A stretch of DNA of 21,348 nt from a virus. The notes beneath the pieces were generated by a model. The model worked only from the letters and a program-made list of their open reading frames with translations. It was not told the origin of the DNA and ran no database searches. Made by a program: the position numbers and the translations under genes. Of this stretch, positions 2,432-20,938 are shown piece after piece. Within the stretch, counting starts at the first letter, position 1, and each line of letters begins with the position of its first letter. Location: positions 1 to 21,348 of the IMG/VR virus record IMGVR_UViG_3300020438_000329; one strand, written 5' to 3'.

Positions 2432-5400
2432 ATGGCTACACAAAAAGAACTAAATGATATTCTTGGTGAAATACAGCCAACTGTTGATCTTCTAGAAGAA
2501 GAAGAGGAAAATTTAGATGCACCAGCTATTGGAACTATAGCTGAAACTCCTGTTACAGAAGAAATAAAAGAAGAATCTACTTTATCAAGTGAAACTCTCG
2601 ATACACTTGCAAAGGATGTACAGGTTAGAAAAACTTTCAAAGTTCCTCAATTTTTAGTAACAAACAATCCAGCTGGTTTAATTGCAGAAGGTTTGCTTAA
2701 CCCAGAAAAAACAAAAAATGACATTAACAGCTTGTATGATTCTTTTACAGAATTTTTTACAGATGTAGTACCAGCAGGTTTAAAATCTACTTTTCCTACT
2801 GTTGCCAACGCTTTTGACATTGCGAGACAAAGAAAAATACGGGAAGATGTGGATGTAGCTACAGGCAGAGAAGAGCCTCCTGACAGTCTTATAAGTCCAA
2901 ATCCTTTTATATTTTCTGATATAGAAATAGCTGTTAAAAAAGATGAGTTTAGAAAATTTCAAGAAGAAACTTGGAATCAAACTCCGATAGCTAAAAAAGC
3001 TGAAATTATTGAAAGCATTACCAGTGATTATGATGCTCTTGAAGAGAGAATTAAAGAAAGGGAAAAATATATAGAAGGAGTGTATGAACAACATGGATTA
3101 GGCAAAGAAGGCAGGGCAGCTGCTTCTGGAGTTACATCTTTCACTTTAATGGCACCTGCTTTTATAACAACTGCTTTAACTAGGAATCCAGCTTTTGCTT
3201 ATAGTATTTTGCCTGTCTTTGGACAACTAGAAAGCACTGCAACTTATAGAGAATCATTACAAAGTGGTTTGACTCATAGAGAAGCCGCAGCTGCTGGTGA
3301 TGTTTCTGGGGCTTTAGAAATAGGAACTGAACTTATAAGCCTTCCTTTTGTGACAAGAGGTTTAAAAGCTTTTAGACAAAAAAATAAAGGTAAGTTAGAA
3401 AATTTCATCACAAACGGATTTGCAACAGTAGCTACAGAATTAGGAGCAGAAAATTTAAATACTTTTTTACAAGAAACCAATAAAGCTGTTAGAGGTGTAA
3501 AAAATGAACTTAATATAGCTTGGAATTTGAAAGACGACCCAACTTATAAAGGTCCTAGTTGGATTGATGTTTTGAGAGATAATGCAGAAATGACAACTAT
3601 TGCAACTTTAGTAGGTGCTGGGGGAATAGTTACAACTCAGGGGGCAGTTCAATATGCTCCAGAAGTAAAATCATTTTTAAATTCTTTAGACCCCAATGTT
3701 GGCAGGAAAGTAGCTAGAGAGCTTGATACCATGTCAAAGGAAGTAGAATCTAATTTTCATGCGATGGATGATACTTTTTTAAGCTTGGCTAAATATGCGA
3801 ATAGACAGGGTATTATGGGAAGAAATTTTGGTAGATTTTCAGCTAATGAACCCATAGATTTAAAAAACGCAAATATTGACCAACTTCTCAACCCTACAAG
3901 AGAAAGTTTTGAATTAGGGGCTCCTGACTTTTTAGTTGATGCTGAATTAACAAAAAACATTTTAAAAACTGATACACAAATTCCAGAACTCTCTGCTGAA
4001 GAAAAAGTTCTTGTTTCTGAACTCAATGATCTGCTTTCAGAAGAAATGGAAGTAGACTTTGAAGATATTTTGAAAACGAATAAAAATGTTTTAAAAATTA
4101 TGGGTGTGTCTGCAACTGAAATATTAGACACAGATTCTTTTACCCAAAAAGTAAAAGACTTTGCAACTAACATTGAAGAAAGAATTCCAACATCAAAAGA
4201 TAGCGTAAAAGAAAATTTACAAAATGATTTAGAGACTTTAAATAAATTTGTAAATTATTTTTCACCTACAAATTTAACAACACCTGATACATCAAAAGCA
4301 TCAAAAGATATAACAAGAGATGAGTTTCCAGATACAGATGAATTTAAAAGACCGATAGGCACTGTATTAGCTCCTGATTTTCGTGAGGAAGATGTGCCTG
4401 TAGTAAATCATTCGGAAGAGCAAATAAATAAAATTAAAAATAGTTTTATTACAAATTTTTTAATTAGAGCAGCAGAGAAAAAAGAAGGCTTTTTAACAAT
4501 TAGTGAATTCAAAACAACTGAATCTGAAAAAGGAGAAGGTTTAAGTTTTAGCACTTCTCTTGAAACTATGGAAAAGATGAATTTGTATGATATTTCTGCG
4601 GAGGATATTAAAAGAATTATTGATATTGGAAAAGGTAAAGAATTACCAGAGCCAGAAATTACTAAAGACAAAACTGTTGAGCCAGAATTCATAAGACAAA
4701 ATTTAAGAGTTGTTGGCAGATATAGAAGTCCGACAGAAGCAGAAGATGTTAGATTGGCTGAAATTCTAGATATTTCCTTACAACTTGGACTGCCCGAAAA
4801 AGCATTAACAGGGGTTAATTCTATTAAGATACTTAGAAATGATCTTGACGAATTTATTCGTGGTGAATACTATGAAAGTAGTGCATCTATAACGCTAGAT
4901 CAACAATATTTTAATACTGAGCAAGATAGAAATTTTTTAAATTATAATGCAGCTCAAACTTTTTTACATGAAATAGCACACCACATAGACTTTACTTACA
5001 ATCAAAACACTGATGGCTCTGGTATTTCTTTAGCTTTTAATTCTCCCCTTTTTGCTTTTCCTGATTTTAAAAAAGAAAATGTTAGGTTTAATGCTGGAGA
5101 TCAAAAACTTCAAGATTTTTCTTTTAAAACTGGAGGAGAAGTTTTTAATGAAATATACAATCTTTATCGAGACTCTAACTTTCAAACACAAATGGAAACT
5201 TTGAGGTTAGGCAGGGGAATGTCCGAAGATCAAGCTGTCTTCAATGCAAAAATGGAGAACAAAAAATTAGGCGGGTTACTAGCTTATCCAATGAATAGTC
5301 TTTTTGTTCATGCGGATAATGCTTACACAGTTGCCGCAGTAAGGGAAAAAATAAAAAATGGAGAGATAATTTCTACAGAAGAAATTGAAAGTGCAATAGG

Positions 5401-8400
5401 TGACGTAGAAATATATTATAAAAACTTTGGAATGAAATCTTTACGAGTTCCCAAAACAACTTATGAAGAATCAAACTTTCCCCAGTTCTTAGCTTCTGAA
5501 ATGTTTGCACAAGTTTTTTCATTGAAATATACTAATTCTGAGTTTTTTAAATTAAATGCACCAAGAACTACAAAATTAATAGAGGATATAGAAAATGCAA
5601 TCAGTCTCAACACCTTTAACGAAGTTACTGTCGGATTACGAAATGCGTTTGGGTACGATAGTTCCCAGCCAGATTTTAAAATCTACAGAATCAACCAGTC
5701 TTACCTCAACACTAACAGAAGCTTTGCAGAACAGCAGGAAAGTGAAAGAGTGGGAGAAGATAATAGTGCAGATGCAACAGAATCCAGAGACGGGCAAGTT
5801 ACAGGAACTAGAGAGGGAGAACGATCTAGAGAGATTACAGGCGAACAAAGCGTTTCTGAAGGTACAGGAGCTAACAGGTCTGAAAATCTAACTCCTGACA
5901 GAGATGAATCTTCGGGTCATGCCTCAGATTTTGTCCCCGCACAATACGGACCCCCAGCACACGATTTAAATCAAGAAGCTACACAAGAAATTACCGCAAG
6001 AGGAGACTCTGTTTTTTCTTTTGATGCGGGAGAAAATTACGAAAATTTAAAATATTTTAATGACGGCAGATATAAAGAAGAAACAGAATTAATAAATAAG
6101 CTTCGAGAAATTAAAGGCAACCCCGATGCTATCTTAACAGTTTATCGAGCCGCACCTACTTCAGAGTTGAGATATGGAGATTTAGTTACTTTGACTAAAG
6201 AAGATGCAGAGTTTGAAGTAGCAGAATCCAAAATTACACAAGAAGAAGTAGATAAAGCAAATAGAGAAAGAGTAAGACAAGAAGATATAGAAAAAACAGG
6301 TGCTATTGATTTACGAAAAGAAAAAAACAGAGACATTATGGATAGACTTTTTCGACCTCCAGATGTGACTCCATCTAAATTACATACTTATGAAATTAGA
6401 GCTGGAGACATTAGGTTTGATGGCAATGGCGGACTTACAAGATGGGGCTTCTTTCCTTCAACTGTCGTCAATATAAAAGGTGACAGACCAGTAAAGTTAA
6501 TAAGTTCTAAAAGAAAAGATGCAAAAGAACCAACAAAGACTCAAGATCAGATTGATAAAGAAAACGCTTTGACTGATGCAATCGAAGCTGGGCAAGTTAG
6601 GAAACCGCCAGAAGGACCTCCTCCTCCGCCAAAAGGTCCAGACCCCAATGGAGAGTTTACAATACCTCAATTAGGTTTTTATAAAGACCTTGTAGAAGCT
6701 ATAAATATAAAAGTTGCTAACAGATTTGGTAGACAATGGACTTTAGAAGAAAGTATGATTGAGCAGTTTGGCGAAGCTGGAATTGTTGAAAGACTACAAG
6801 AATTAGGCTTGGACCCAGACGCTAAAGACTGGAGAATTACAACTCAAACAGATATTTATCAAGGTAAGGTGAAAGATTTGCTTAGAGACTTGGCAGATGT
6901 TTATTATGAGCCAATGCTTAAGTTTTTGACCTTAAATGCTATTACTGAGACTAAATACAACCATTTTGTTTATAGCTTACACGCACCTGAAAGAAACGCA
7001 TATCTACCAACTAAGTTTACAGAAAGCATAGCTGAAGCCGAAGCAGATTTACTTACCCTTGAAGCTGAAGGAAAAGGTTCAAAGCAAGATGTTATAAATG
7101 CAAAAAGAAAATTAACAACATTACAAAATAAATTAAAAAAAGCCGAAAGTGGTTCTGGAATTACAACAGAACAAGCTGTTAAAAATTTAGAAAAATATGG
7201 AGTAGAGTATAGAAATGGAGTAGCTACAGGTGTTACCGCAAAAGGTAAAGCCTACTTGAATGCTTATGAAAGCTTTCATAAACCCATGATCGAATATATG
7301 AGAAAAACATATACGGACTCTGGTCTTATTACTCAAGACAAAATTTCTGATTGGAATCAAAGGTACAATTATTATGTACCTTTAAAAGGTTTTGCAGAAG
7401 ATACTTTGATAGACCCTAAAACGGGCAGAGAAATAAAAAGATCAGGCACATCTAATAATCTTATAAAGTCACAAATGACTGTCTCTGGACAAATAGTTAA
7501 AAAAGCAAAAGGAAGAGAATCTTTAGCAGACTCTCCTTTACAACAGTCAGTTATAGACACAGTATCTGCACTAATACAAAGTGAAAAAAATGTAATAGTA
7601 AAAAGTATGGCTGACCTTTCAAGGGCTTTTCCAAACGATCAATTCTGGCTAGTTATAGAAGATGCAGGGCAACTAGAAAGTGTTGATGCTACTTGGGATG
7701 ATGCGAAAGGTAAAAGTAGAGTAGGTTTTAAAGAAGATGGGGTTCAAAAGTATGTTGAATTGTACGATAAAAGATTAGCTCAAGGTTTTGATGATTTTGA
7801 TAACACAATAACTGGCAACTTTATGAAAACCTTTAGATATGCCACTAGATATTTATCAATGGTAAACACATCTTTAGACCCTGCATTTATGATTAATAAT
7901 TTTATTAGAGATGTGCAAACAGCTTATTTTAATTTATTAGCTGAAGAAGAAATTACTAGCGGTAGAGCACAAGGTTTAGAAATTTCTAAAAAATATTTTA
8001 CCTCTTTAAATATTTTAAATAATTCTAAGCTACTCATTAAATTTGAAAAAAACAAAACACTTGCTAATAAAGGAATGAAAGAAGAAATGGCTGAGTTACA
8101 ACGAAGCGGTGCAGAAATTAATATACAGTTAATAAAAAAACTTGGAGAAAAATACAACCTTTCACCAGAACTTGTTTTAAAAAATGCAAAAATGTTGCAG
8201 TTTAAAAAATATGGAGGAGAAACGGGATATATAGATCAAAAAAACATAGAACAAATGACTCAAGAATTTCAAACTCTCAGAGATATTTATTCAGGCTCTA
8301 TAAAAGCTGCTCCAAAAAAAGTTTTAAGAGATTCATTAGCAATAGTAGAAAGATTTAATTCAGGTGTAGAAAACGCTGCAAGATTTACAGCTTTTGAAGG

Positions 8401-9871
8401 ATATATAGAAATGATAGGCGGCATAGATGTTGCCACTCCAAAAGATTTTGAAAAGGCAGCTACCTTAGCTAAAAATTTAACTATAAACTTTAACAGAATG
8501 GGAACTATGGGACCAACTGCGAATGCAATGTATATGTTCTTTAATGCTTCAATTCAAGGCTCTGTTAATGTTGCAAGAGGATTAATAGGTAAAGAAAAAT
8601 CATCTAGAAAAGTAAAAGCGGTAGCAGCATTAGGAGCTCTTGGCTCTTTACAAACTATGTGGAATATTCTTTATGCTGCAGAAGATGAAGAAGATGGTGT
8701 TAATTGGTATAAAAAAATTCCTGATTGGGAAAAACAAACAAAATTTATTTTTATGTACCCAGATATAGATTTATCTAAAGGAAAAATAACAGTTGATAAA
8801 TGGGGTACAGGTTCTAAATATTATGTAATTTCAGATGATGGTGAAAGAAAATTACCTATAGGATTAGGAATACCAAAACCTTATGGCTATGCTTTATTTC
8901 ACGATATTGGCAGGATAACAACAGAATATGCCTTGAGCAAAAATATTGATAATTACAATGTTTCTCTTCAACAAGCAGCAGCTGATCTAGGAGAATCTCT
9001 GCTTCACAATTATGCTCCATTAAGTTTTGGAGATAGAGATAACTTGGGTGAAACCCTTACATTAGCTGTTGCTCCTTCCGTTACTAAACCTGTTGTAAAT
9101 TGGATGCAAAATAAAGACCATTTTGGCTCTCCTATTAAAACTTCTGAATCTGTTAGAGACTTAATAGGTGACACAATGCCAAGAAGCTATAATGAGTCTC
9201 GAAGAGCTTTAGGCTTTACAAAAGGACTTACTAAAACTATAAATAATCTAACTGGCGGTAATCAGTTTTATGAAGGAGCCGTTGATATAGACCCTAGAAC
9301 TTTGCAATTTTTCTTGGGAGAAGCAACTGGGGGACTGGGAAGAACTTCTTTTAGATTTTACCAAGCAGGAGAAGCATTAGTTACAGGCTCCCCTTTACCT
9401 CCAACTGATATTTTAGGCTTAAGAAGAATTATTGCTGGACCAAGAGACTATGTTGATAGTGAAATCTATGAAAGAAATGTTCAAGAATTTCTCAAATTTG
9501 AAGGAGCATCAAATCAATTTGCTGATACAGATTTAGATGAAGAAAAAATGTCAGAGACTGAAGAAGAATTTGAAGAAAGAATAGGCACGGGTCTAGATGC
9601 TTTAGGTGTAGTTGGCGACAAAGAAACAAGAGAGAGTTTGTCTGATATTGATACACCATATAAAACAGCTACAAAAGAAATTAAAGAGTTAAATAAACAA
9701 TTAAGAGAATTAAATTTAGAATATCAAGTAGCAGAAACTTTTGAAGAAAAAATGGAATTAGAAGCTGAGAAAAAAGAAATTCAATTAGATATTTTAGTGG
9801 TCAAAAAGAATTTCAATCAAGAATTTAACGAAGCCAAAAAAGATGTAGAAGAAGAATTAAAGGAAAATTGA
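2432..9871 (+). CDS. giant polyvalent ejection protein with zincin, possible ART-like and LPD38 regions (2479 aa)
   Basis: This gene spans more than a third of the window. By eye: an acidic disordered N-terminus (residues 15-50); an Ala/Gly-rich hydrophobic region (about 227-300 and 390-420) resembling membrane-active parts of ejection proteins; a zincin motif HEIAH at 846-850 with a possible third ligand E1023; a low-complexity hydrophilic linker (about 1080-1190); a compact domain with VYRAAP (R1239) resembling an ADP-ribosyltransferase-like polyvalent domain; a proline linker near 1393-1405; a helical 'HAPERN' region; an LPD38-type region with SLDPAFMINNFIRD (near 1813); and a charged coiled coil at 2400-2479. 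Polyvalent proteins co-ejected with phage DNA are an established theme; the domain assignments are pattern recognition. GAGG at 2421-2424 lies 7 bases before the ATG. No lytic transglycosylase motif was recognised. Confidence 0.8.
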   Translation: MATQKELNDILGEIQPTVDLLEEEEENLDAPAIGTIAETPVTEEIKEESTLSSETLDTLAKDVQVRKTFKVPQFLVTNNPAGLIAEGLLNPEKTKNDINSLYDSFTEFFTDVVPAGLKSTFPTVANAFDIARQRKIREDVDVATGREEPPDSLISPNPFIFSDIEIAVKKDEFRKFQEETWNQTPIAKKAEIIESITSDYDALEERIKEREKYIEGVYEQHGLGKEGRAAASGVTSFTLMAPAFITTALTRNPAFAYSILPVFGQLESTATYRESLQSGLTHREAAAAGDVSGALEIGTELISLPFVTRGLKAFRQKNKGKLENFITNGFATVATELGAENLNTFLQETNKAVRGVKNELNIAWNLKDDPTYKGPSWIDVLRDNAEMTTIATLVGAGGIVTTQGAVQYAPEVKSFLNSLDPNVGRKVARELDTMSKEVESNFHAMDDTFLSLAKYANRQGIMGRNFGRFSANEPIDLKNANIDQLLNPTRESFELGAPDFLVDAELTKNILKTDTQIPELSAEEKVLVSELNDLLSEEMEVDFEDILKTNKNVLKIMGVSATEILDTDSFTQKVKDFATNIEERIPTSKDSVKENLQNDLETLNKFVNYFSPTNLTTPDTSKASKDITRDEFPDTDEFKRPIGTVLAPDFREEDVPVVNHSEEQINKIKNSFITNFLIRAAEKKEGFLTISEFKTTESEKGEGLSFSTSLETMEKMNLYDISAEDIKRIIDIGKGKELPEPEITKDKTVEPEFIRQNLRVVGRYRSPTEAEDVRLAEILDISLQLGLPEKALTGVNSIKILRNDLDEFIRGEYYESSASITLDQQYFNTEQDRNFLNYNAAQTFLHEIAHHIDFTYNQNTDGSGISLAFNSPLFAFPDFKKENVRFNAGDQKLQDFSFKTGGEVFNEIYNLYRDSNFQTQMETLRLGRGMSEDQAVFNAKMENKKLGGLLAYPMNSLFVHADNAYTVAAVREKIKNGEIISTEEIESAIGDVEIYYKNFGMKSLRVPKTTYEESNFPQFLASEMFAQVFSLKYTNSEFFKLNAPRTTKLIEDIENAISLNTFNEVTVGLRNAFGYDSSQPDFKIYRINQSYLNTNRSFAEQQESERVGEDNSADATESRDGQVTGTREGERSREITGEQSVSEGTGANRSENLTPDRDESSGHASDFVPAQYGPPAHDLNQEATQEITARGDSVFSFDAGENYENLKYFNDGRYKEETELINKLREIKGNPDAILTVYRAAPTSELRYGDLVTLTKEDAEFEVAESKITQEEVDKANRERVRQEDIEKTGAIDLRKEKNRDIMDRLFRPPDVTPSKLHTYEIRAGDIRFDGNGGLTRWGFFPSTVVNIKGDRPVKLISSKRKDAKEPTKTQDQIDKENALTDAIEAGQVRKPPEGPPPPPKGPDPNGEFTIPQLGFYKDLVEAINIKVANRFGRQWTLEESMIEQFGEAGIVERLQELGLDPDAKDWRITTQTDIYQGKVKDLLRDLADVYYEPMLKFLTLNAITETKYNHFVYSLHAPERNAYLPTKFTESIAEAEADLLTLEAEGKGSKQDVINAKRKLTTLQNKLKKAESGSGITTEQAVKNLEKYGVEYRNGVATGVTAKGKAYLNAYESFHKPMIEYMRKTYTDSGLITQDKISDWNQRYNYYVPLKGFAEDTLIDPKTGREIKRSGTSNNLIKSQMTVSGQIVKKAKGRESLADSPLQQSVIDTVSALIQSEKNVIVKSMADLSRAFPNDQFWLVIEDAGQLESVDATWDDAKGKSRVGFKEDGVQKYVELYDKRLAQGFDDFDNTITGNFMKTFRYATRYLSMVNTSLDPAFMINNFIRDVQTAYFNLLAEEEITSGRAQGLEISKKYFTSLNILNNSKLLIKFEKNKTLANKGMKEEMAELQRSGAEINIQLIKKLGEKYNLSPELVLKNAKMLQFKKYGGETGYIDQKNIEQMTQEFQTLRDIYSGSIKAAPKKVLRDSLAIVERFNSGVENAARFTAFEGYIEMIGGIDVATPKDFEKAATLAKNLTINFNRMGTMGPTANAMYMFFNASIQGSVNVARGLIGKEKSSRKVKAVAALGALGSLQTMWNILYAAEDEEDGVNWYKKIPDWEKQTKFIFMYPDIDLSKGKITVDKWGTGSKYYVISDDGERKLPIGLGIPKPYGYALFHDIGRITTEYALSKNIDNYNVSLQQAAADLGESLLHNYAPLSFGDRDNLGETLTLAVAPSVTKPVVNWMQNKDHFGSPIKTSESVRDLIGDTMPRSYNESRRALGFTKGLTKTINNLTGGNQFYEGAVDIDPRTLQFFLGEATGGLGRTSFRFYQAGEALVTGSPLPPTDILGLRRIIAGPRDYVDSEIYERNVQEFLKFEGASNQFADTDLDEEKMSETEEEFEERIGTGLDALGVVGDKETRESLSDIDTPYKTATKEIKELNKQLRELNLEYQVAETFEEKMELEAEKKEIQLDILVVKKNFNQEFNEAKKDVEEELKEN
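5595..5891 (+). CDS. candidate overprinted gene nested out of frame in the giant ORF (98 aa)
   Basis: A 98-codon ORF reads in the +1 frame relative to the 2479-aa gene. It has AGAGGA at 5581-5586, 8 bases before its ATG, a better ribosome binding site than many genes here have. The product would be a soluble, helix-rich protein with a charged coiled-coil-like second half (KLQELERENDLERLQANKAF). The host frame over the same bases encodes a Ser/Gly/Glu/Arg-rich linker between domains, the sort of segment that tolerates overprinting. The alternative is chance: low-complexity A-rich DNA can be open in several frames. Function unknown. Confidence 0.35.
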   Translation: MQSVSTPLTKLLSDYEMRLGTIVPSQILKSTESTSLTSTLTEALQNSRKVKEWEKIIVQMQQNPETGKLQELERENDLERLQANKAFLKVQELTGLKI

Positions 9872-20242: not shown

Positions 20243-20350
20243 ATGAAAAAAATAAATACCCCAGTTCCTACTAAAAAAGCTGGACTTAATAGAAACATAC
20301 TAATTCATTCAGGTCACGTTTACGGATGTGGGAAATCAAGAAAAAAATAA
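20243..20350 (+). CDS. tiny basic protein (35 aa)
   Basis: A 35-residue protein beginning MKKINTPVPTKKAGLNRNIL, with 'HSGHVYGCGKSRKK' at the end, so one Cys and two His close together. It lies 11 bases after the previous stop and 11 before the next ATG, which suits the packing of this cluster. No strong ribosome binding site precedes it. Function unknown. Confidence 0.5.
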   Translation: MKKINTPVPTKKAGLNRNILIHSGHVYGCGKSRKK

Positions 20351-20361
20351 AGAGGTAAAAT

Positions 20362-20439
20362 ATGTACGGCAAGAAAACTAAAGGTAAAAGTTATGGCAGC
20401 AAAAAAACCAAGAAGAAAAACTACGGCAAAAAAAAGTAA
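20362..20439 (+). CDS. 25-residue YGxK-repeat mini-protein overlapping the next gene
   Basis: MYGKKTKGKSYGSKKTKKKN and four more residues give three copies of a Tyr-Gly-x-Lys unit. AGAGG at 20351-20355 lies 6 bases before the ATG, the best ribosome binding site of the local cluster. The last 47 bases overlap the 70-aa gene in a different frame. Such Lys/Tyr/Gly mini-proteins could bind DNA or be virion components. A leader that raises translation of the next gene is an alternative. Confidence 0.5.
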   Translation: MYGKKTKGKSYGSKKTKKKNYGKKK

Positions 20440-20605
20440 GTCCAGAGTTAATGAAGCAGGTAACTACACAAAACCTGCTATGCGTAAAAGACTTTTTAAT
20501 AAAATAAAATCAGGAAACAAAGGAGGTCGAAGCGGTCAATGGTCTGCTCGAAAGGCTCAAATGTTAGCCAAACAGTACAAAGCCGCAGGAGGCGGCTATC
20601 GCTAA
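20393..20605 (+). CDS. conserved basic phage protein (70 aa)
   Basis: A 70-residue strongly basic protein with a Lys/Arg tail region (1-18), then 'VNEAGNYTKPAMRKRLFNKI' and 'GQWSARKAQMLAKQYKAAGG' to the end GGYR. I recognise this 'NYTKPxMRKRLFN ... SARKAQMLAKxYK' pattern from small marine-phage proteins; the function is not known to me. AAGG lies 8 bases before the ATG. The start lies inside the mini-gene upstream. AGGAGG at 20587-20592, just before its stop, may serve a downstream tiny gene. Confidence 0.75.
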   Translation: MAAKKPRRKTTAKKSKSRVNEAGNYTKPAMRKRLFNKIKSGNKGGRSGQWSARKAQMLAKQYKAAGGGYR

Positions 20606-20687
20606 ACAGCAAAATCAAAAAGTAGAAATCAAAAAACAATTAAAGATCAGGAAAAAACAACAAAAATTAAAAAAACATAATCAATAA
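20598..20687 (+). CDS. candidate 29-residue basic protein with an ATC start
   Basis: After the 70-aa gene an 82-base gap seems empty, but the +1 frame is open from 20568 to the TAA at 20685-20687. That TAA overlaps the next ATG as TAATG, like true gene junctions here. The frame contains no ATG, GTG, TTG or CTG. It does have AGGAGG at 20587-20592 exactly 5 bases before an ATC codon at 20598. Translation would give about 29 residues, very Lys/Gln-rich, ending in KIRKKQQKLKKHNQ. A +1 frameshift extending the 70-aa protein, or a sequencing error, are alternatives. Confidence 0.35.
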   Translation: MAKQQNQKVEIKKQLKIRKKQQKLKKHNQ

Positions 20688-20938
20688 TGGCTTTAAAAAA
20701 ATCACAAAAATCTTTAAAACTTTGGACCAAACAAGAGTGGCGGACTAAATCTGGAAAGCCTTCAACTCAAGGAAAAAAAGCAACTGGTGAAAGATACTTA
20801 CCTAAAAAAGCAATCAAAGCTATGTCAGCTGCTGAGTATGCTGCAACTACTAGAAAAAAAAGAGCAGATACAAAAAAGGGAAAGCAACATTCAAAACAAA
20901 CTAAGAAAGCCAGAAGAACAACTAAGAGGTATAGATAA
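20687..20938 (+). CDS. DUF5872-like basic protein (83 aa)
   Basis: An 83-residue Lys/Arg-rich protein with 'KSLKLWTKQEWRTKSGKPST' near the start, 'RYLPKKAIKAMSAAEYAATT' in the middle and a poly-basic tail. The 'LxxWTxQxWRTKSGKxS ... GERYLPxxAI ... YAATTRKKR' arrangement matches my memory of DUF5872, found in phages and large viruses, function unknown. It overlaps the following gene by one base (TAATG). The family is by eye. Confidence 0.7.
   Translation: MALKKSQKSLKLWTKQEWRTKSGKPSTQGKKATGERYLPKKAIKAMSAAEYAATTRKKRADTKKGKQHSKQTKKARRTTKRYR

Follow-up and report, generated by a model that had tools for sequence, protein, structure and literature searches.

The right end of the phage record IMGVR_UViG_3300020438_000329 poses the question of whether a gap between two small genes hides a third gene that lacks a standard start codon. 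The window analyzed here is this whole stretch of DNA, 21,348 bases in length, which encodes an integrase, ERF and YqaJ recombination proteins, a DnaB-type helicase, and a RecA-dependent nuclease; a single 2,479-aa frame (positions 2432 to 9871) takes up a third of the record. Small basic genes cluster at the right end of the window, including genes A and B (Table 1), which are separated by 81 nt (A stops at 20605 and B starts at 20687). Inspection by eye also revealed a 25-aa frame, MYGKK..YGKKK (positions 20362 to 20439), which extends into the 5′ end of A in a different frame and terminates at a run of eight As, and a 35-aa frame, MKKINTPVPT.. (positions 20243 to 20350), which fills the gap preceding the 25-aa frame. 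For the gap between A and B, a preliminary description proposed either a hidden tiny gene starting with ATC or a +1 shift extending A.

Table 1. Coordinates of the A-B junction in the window, and contigs carrying the interrupted sister form
Feature	Position	Strand	Basis or remark
Gene A, upstream, basic, 70 aa	20393..20605	+	phrog_17747 (unknown function), E 6.6e-35
Predicted 6-bp hairpin AGCCGC/GCGGCT with AGGAG in the loop	20581..20597	+	71-nt fold
AGGAGG, Shine-Dalgarno-like, within the Gly codons of A	20587..20592	+	ends 5 nt before ATC
ATC, candidate start codon	20598..20600	+	position of ATG in homologues
Putative microprotein gene, 29 aa, IAKQQNQKVEIKKQLKIRKKQQKLKKHNQ then stop (homologues MAKQ..HNQ then stop)	20598..20687	+	homology
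TAATG, tiny-gene stop overlapping the start of B	20685..20689	+	no Shine-Dalgarno site near the ATG of B
Gene B, downstream, basic, 83 aa	20687..20938	+	phrog_14910 (unknown function), E 2e-31
A9 loci (29)			L164-L167, L169, L172, L174, L176, L177, L179, L181-L183, L186, L192-L198, L200, L201, L203, L205-L209

Signals in the gap and their chance expectation

The signals reported in the preliminary description were all recovered. The frame at positions 20568 to 20687 consists of 39 uninterrupted codons followed by TAA, which forms a TAATG overlap with the ATG of B; the frame contains no ATG, GTG, or TTG, either in the window or in contigs L180 and L187, whose sequence at this site is the same; and AGGAGG lies inside the end of A, 5 nt ahead of ATC. 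The locus thereby combines the absence of an in-frame standard start with a strong, properly spaced Shine-Dalgarno site, as looked for in a non-AUG gene. By themselves, the open frame and AGGAGG are near chance, since at least one frame was open in 3,267 of 5,000 dinucleotide shuffles of the gap (65%) and the motif is encoded by the conserved glycines in the C-terminal AAGGGYR of A; the homologues described below exceed chance. Because it encodes these glycines, GGxGG is universal at the end of A (159 of 159 relatives with an A match, among the matches listed), and the exact AGGAGG occurs in 14 of the 159, among the same matches. The relatives were taken from two lists, each comprising the best 80 matches. 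B starts 0 to 9 nt past the last aligned codon of A in 86 of 159 loci with both genes placed, so the GGxGG-type motif probably serves B directly in the normal arrangement; the distance is 10 to 300 nt in 42 of the 159, mostly with other small genes in between.

The 71-nt fold containing the hairpin has a predicted energy of −12.5 kcal/mol (z = −4.06), and none of 200 shuffles was equally stable; AGGAGG could be hidden by this predicted structure. The ATG of B has no Shine-Dalgarno match of at least 4 nt in the window, and neither do the next-gene starts at related junctions (nine of the nine listed, out of 10 selected), an arrangement that would suit coupling. Such starts are not rare in the window, where several other genes have them, and B therefore need not depend on coupling.

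The open frame taken alone is compatible with chance, which was rejected on the basis of homology. A base-call error is also unlikely, as the independent contigs L180 and L187 match the window at >99.9% identity across 7.5 and 3.7 kb, respectively, and the junction is unchanged in L163, L173, and L178.

A family of marine phage microproteins

A first scan of IMG/VR combining the C-terminal motif with the TAATG overlap retrieved 25 contigs, and a looser scan retrieved 29. The matches form three sets: genes with an in-frame ATG, the ATC lineage to which the window belongs, and a sister group interrupted by a run of nine As (A9). Homologues of 29 aa with an ATG start occur in L168, L170, L171, and L189 to L191 and, from a start-anchored scan, in L199, L202, and L204, while those of L175, L184, and L185 have 28 aa, with one codon fewer and the ATG one codon later. 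The L188 homologue starts with GTG, so ATG is common in the family and not defining. Except in the 28-aa genes and L188, the ATG of the homologues coincides exactly with the ATC of the window, which upholds the proposal of a hidden tiny gene. The family pattern is MAKQ.QQK...KQQ.L..HNQ, with 27 to 29 Lys/Gln-rich residues. A stop overlapping or adjoining the next ATG is usual among the relatives and is absent in L199, L202, and L204.

The window peptide shares 14 to 17 of 28 residues with six representatives of the ATG set, and none of 20,000 shuffles scored as well. Pattern scans bias which relatives appear, and residues beyond the patterns were therefore compared separately: outside the search-pattern positions, 8 to 10 of 19 residues are identical (7 to 448 of 50,000 shuffles as good), and another comparison gave 7 of 16 (3 of 50,000 shuffles as good). 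The window copy thus has full-length homology and the stop overlap but not the ATG start, and its family membership rests on homology. Judged in this way, the hidden gene in the gap is real and is a member of a marine phage microprotein family.

The start-anchored scan cannot match the ATC lineage or QQNQ types, and a complementary scan was added. It retrieved 46 stretches, 41 of them new; an ATG-started 27-aa relative (MAKQQNQKLKK...RNG or RNR) was present in 13 of the 41 and was not seen in the other 28. In L211, L213, L232, L233, L241, and L249, this 27-aa relative adjoins genes that we take to be holin-type membrane protein-, CsgG-, FecR-, and CHASE2-like. The peptide sequence is conserved across different gene neighborhoods. 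Its composition, together with the lysis, terminase, or portal genes that adjoin it in several contigs, leads us to guess at a small nucleic acid-binding or virion assembly accessory. None of the Pfam and PHROGs models scanned represents the family, and isolate phages gave no match for three peptides or two DNA stretches, with a low-complexity filter that may hide peptide matches. Literature searches covering titles and the openings of abstracts returned no description of the family and nothing on programmed transcriptional slippage in a phage small protein.

Candidate start codon, proposed origin, and signs of constraint in the ATC lineage

The ATC lineage comprises six contigs (the window, L163, L173, L178, L180, and L187) with three haplotypes. 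The preliminary description had named related phages as the check, asking whether they have an ATG at this position or conserve ATC plus AGGAGG, and had taken in-frame stops as refutation. Both of the patterns asked about were found, the former in the homologues and the latter, together with TAATG, in all six contigs. As for stops, there are none in the five related ATC-lineage contigs, and the interruption in the sister group follows a pattern, with a break at A9 and resumption in the −1 frame. Translation of the tiny gene from ATC is the best reading of the locus and a likely one (probability of about 0.57), as AGGAGG at 5 nt, the lack of a Shine-Dalgarno site for B, and the signs of constraint given below are all consistent with it. 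AUC starts are far weaker than AUG starts. AUC is counted among the less common of the known bacterial starts (PMC6397469).

The origin of this start may be reflected in the sister group, in which 8 of the 14 contigs with the A-tiny gene-B order carry GCTAA-TG-GCTAA where the A stop meets the tiny-gene start. A 7-nt deletion of one GCTAA repeat plus TG would have removed the ATG, kept the stop of A, and put ATC at codon 1.

Between the window and L163, 6 of 81 gap bases differ, and synonymous divergence rises from 0.23 in A to 0.52 in B and 0.63 in the gene after B. The tiny frame carries 4 nonsynonymous changes in 74 sites versus 7 changes in ~31 synonymous sites of the nearest A and B codons (local rate of 0.23), i.e., fewer changes than at local synonymous sites (Fisher p = 0.014) and than at all A plus B synonymous sites (Fisher p = 1.4e-7). 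The low-divergence tract runs from the last part of A through the tiny gene into the first part of B, and because it reaches beyond the tiny gene, recombination or another local constraint could explain part of this conservation. The constraint argument is also weakened by the few ways in which a Lys/Gln-rich sequence can vary. Variants among the ATC haplotypes are 2 synonymous and 4 amino acid changes, small counts with no synonymous excess.

The same data bear on the alternative that the gene is decaying, its ATG having been deleted and its frame being untranslated but still open because of the short time elapsed and the A-rich sequence. Decay would agree with the lack of a standard start in any of the six contigs, with the openness of the frame in 65% of the shuffles, and with haplotype changes that are not enriched for synonymous ones. 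However, the ATG loss predates the split of the window and L163, across which 52 to 63% of synonymous sites in B and the next gene differ, yet so few gap bases have changed; the local test and the stop overlap, intact in six of six contigs, also speak against decay, which we consider less likely than translation from ATC but the main rival to it. Far less probable is a +1 ribosomal frameshift near the end of A that would yield a longer basic protein with a 29-aa tail. The open frame does reach back to 20568, overlapping the end of A, and AGGAGG precedes the last sense codon, CGC, by 7 nt, in a loose resemblance to the layout of prfB, but 158 of 158 A homologues end 1 to 5 aa after GGGY, so that no fusion is conserved and the longer protein of the preliminary description finds no counterpart. 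In addition, the relatives have two separate genes, the homologous starts coincide with ATC, and no obvious slippery +1 site was seen by reading. Finally, a noncoding spacer whose resemblance to the family is a by-product of A-rich composition is scarcely credible, for although composition alone often keeps a frame open, the homology exceeds both composition and search patterns, and there are ATG-bearing homologues with identical length and junctions.

A conserved A9 break in the sister group

A scan anchored solely on the downstream half retrieved the 29 sister contigs (Table 1). The A run is exactly nine in all 29 and breaks the frame; after it, the −1 frame gives a product that is homologous to the in-frame genes, 29 residues in register. 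These contigs fall into two settings, one between A and B (14 contigs) and the other before an Rz-like spanin (15 contigs), where the product has 30 residues and ends in HNQE. Shared neighbors in L182, L193, and L206 (with the spanin match in L206) indicate that the two settings belong to related phages, and the A9 run may therefore have a single origin. The −1 frame pattern had 0 matches in genome_contigs.

Variation was counted in 23 unique sequences, with L101 and L081 dropped as duplicates of L166 and L163, respectively. In the downstream half, the −1 frame has 21 synonymous and 6 amino acid variants versus 6 and 19 in the 0 frame, while the upstream half has 15 synonymous and 10 amino acid variants in the 0 frame. 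This pattern of variation indicates that the −1 continuation is under purifying selection. All 23 of the 23 unique sequences use AAA for the lysine codons of the run (codons 12 to 14), against a background in which AAG accounts for 1,030 of 2,601 Lys codons in the longer ORFs of the sister contigs. Among 27 third-base-variable codons, none of the 3 in the run varies, as opposed to 22 of the remaining 24 (visual count; Fisher p = 0.003).

An assembly error is an unlikely source of A9, given that all 29 loci and all 23 unique sequences carry it. An independent start in the −1 frame was also rejected, as this frame does not open until the A run itself and contains no ATG, GTG, or TTG. The exact A9 and the apparent selection on the −1 frame suggest transcriptional slippage or −1 frameshifting. 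Folds of 4 of the 29 loci gave z values of 0.29, 0.31, −0.77, and −1.57; transcriptional slippage needs no structure. The A9 break is a stronger and more general discovery than the ATC start.

Proposed mechanism and comparison with known systems

In the model that we propose, a member of the Lys/Gln-rich family was inserted between A and B. Ribosomes finishing A at TAA (positions 20603 to 20605) would be held by AGGAGG and would reinitiate inefficiently at ATC, which lies 5 nt past this motif, to make the 29-aa peptide; a second reinitiation would follow at the ATG of B, for which there is no Shine-Dalgarno site. In this way, the tiny gene would keep its own level and that of B low, and slippage on A9 would fill the same low-yield role in the sister group. 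That two devices hold the family at low yield, an AUC start in the window lineage and A9 slippage in the sister phages, with TAATG throttling the next gene, is put forward tentatively, and we would not give it even odds.

AUU/AUC-type starts have been experimentally shown in infC and pcnB. The window gene resembles them in its AUN start, strong Shine-Dalgarno site, and implied low yield, whereas its start is deduced from homology and is tied to translational coupling in a phage. Small translational-coupling ORFs exist between phage or bacterial genes and likewise show a TAATG overlap and a next gene without its own Shine-Dalgarno site; the difference here is that the peptide sequence itself is conserved across differing neighborhoods.

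A further comparison, with A-run slippage and −1 systems (dnaX, IS elements, and Shigella spa13), concerns the sister phages and not the window copy. The sister group shares with these systems a conserved A run, here A9, and halves selected in different frames. Bacterial slippage occurs on runs of nine As and, in spa13, affects the overlapping next gene (PMC5009743), as is proposed for the sister group, and A_AAA_AAA is among the ribosomal shift heptamers (PMC3711429). Unlike these systems, the sister gene, a candidate for recoding from its sequence, has only ~29 codons and no clear predicted stimulator.

Genes of this sort should escape gene finders restricted to ATG, GTG, or TTG starts or to a single continuous frame. 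If the ATC start works, the window would hold a rare natural AUC-initiated phage gene. If recoding does take place at the sister break, a 29-codon gene with a conserved frameshift would rank with the smallest recoded genes and, to our knowledge, be one of the shortest. The A9 break would offer a simple test bed for slippage-controlled coupling in AT-rich marine phages, and the findings suggest that a class of microproteins is being missed in the genomes of marine phages.
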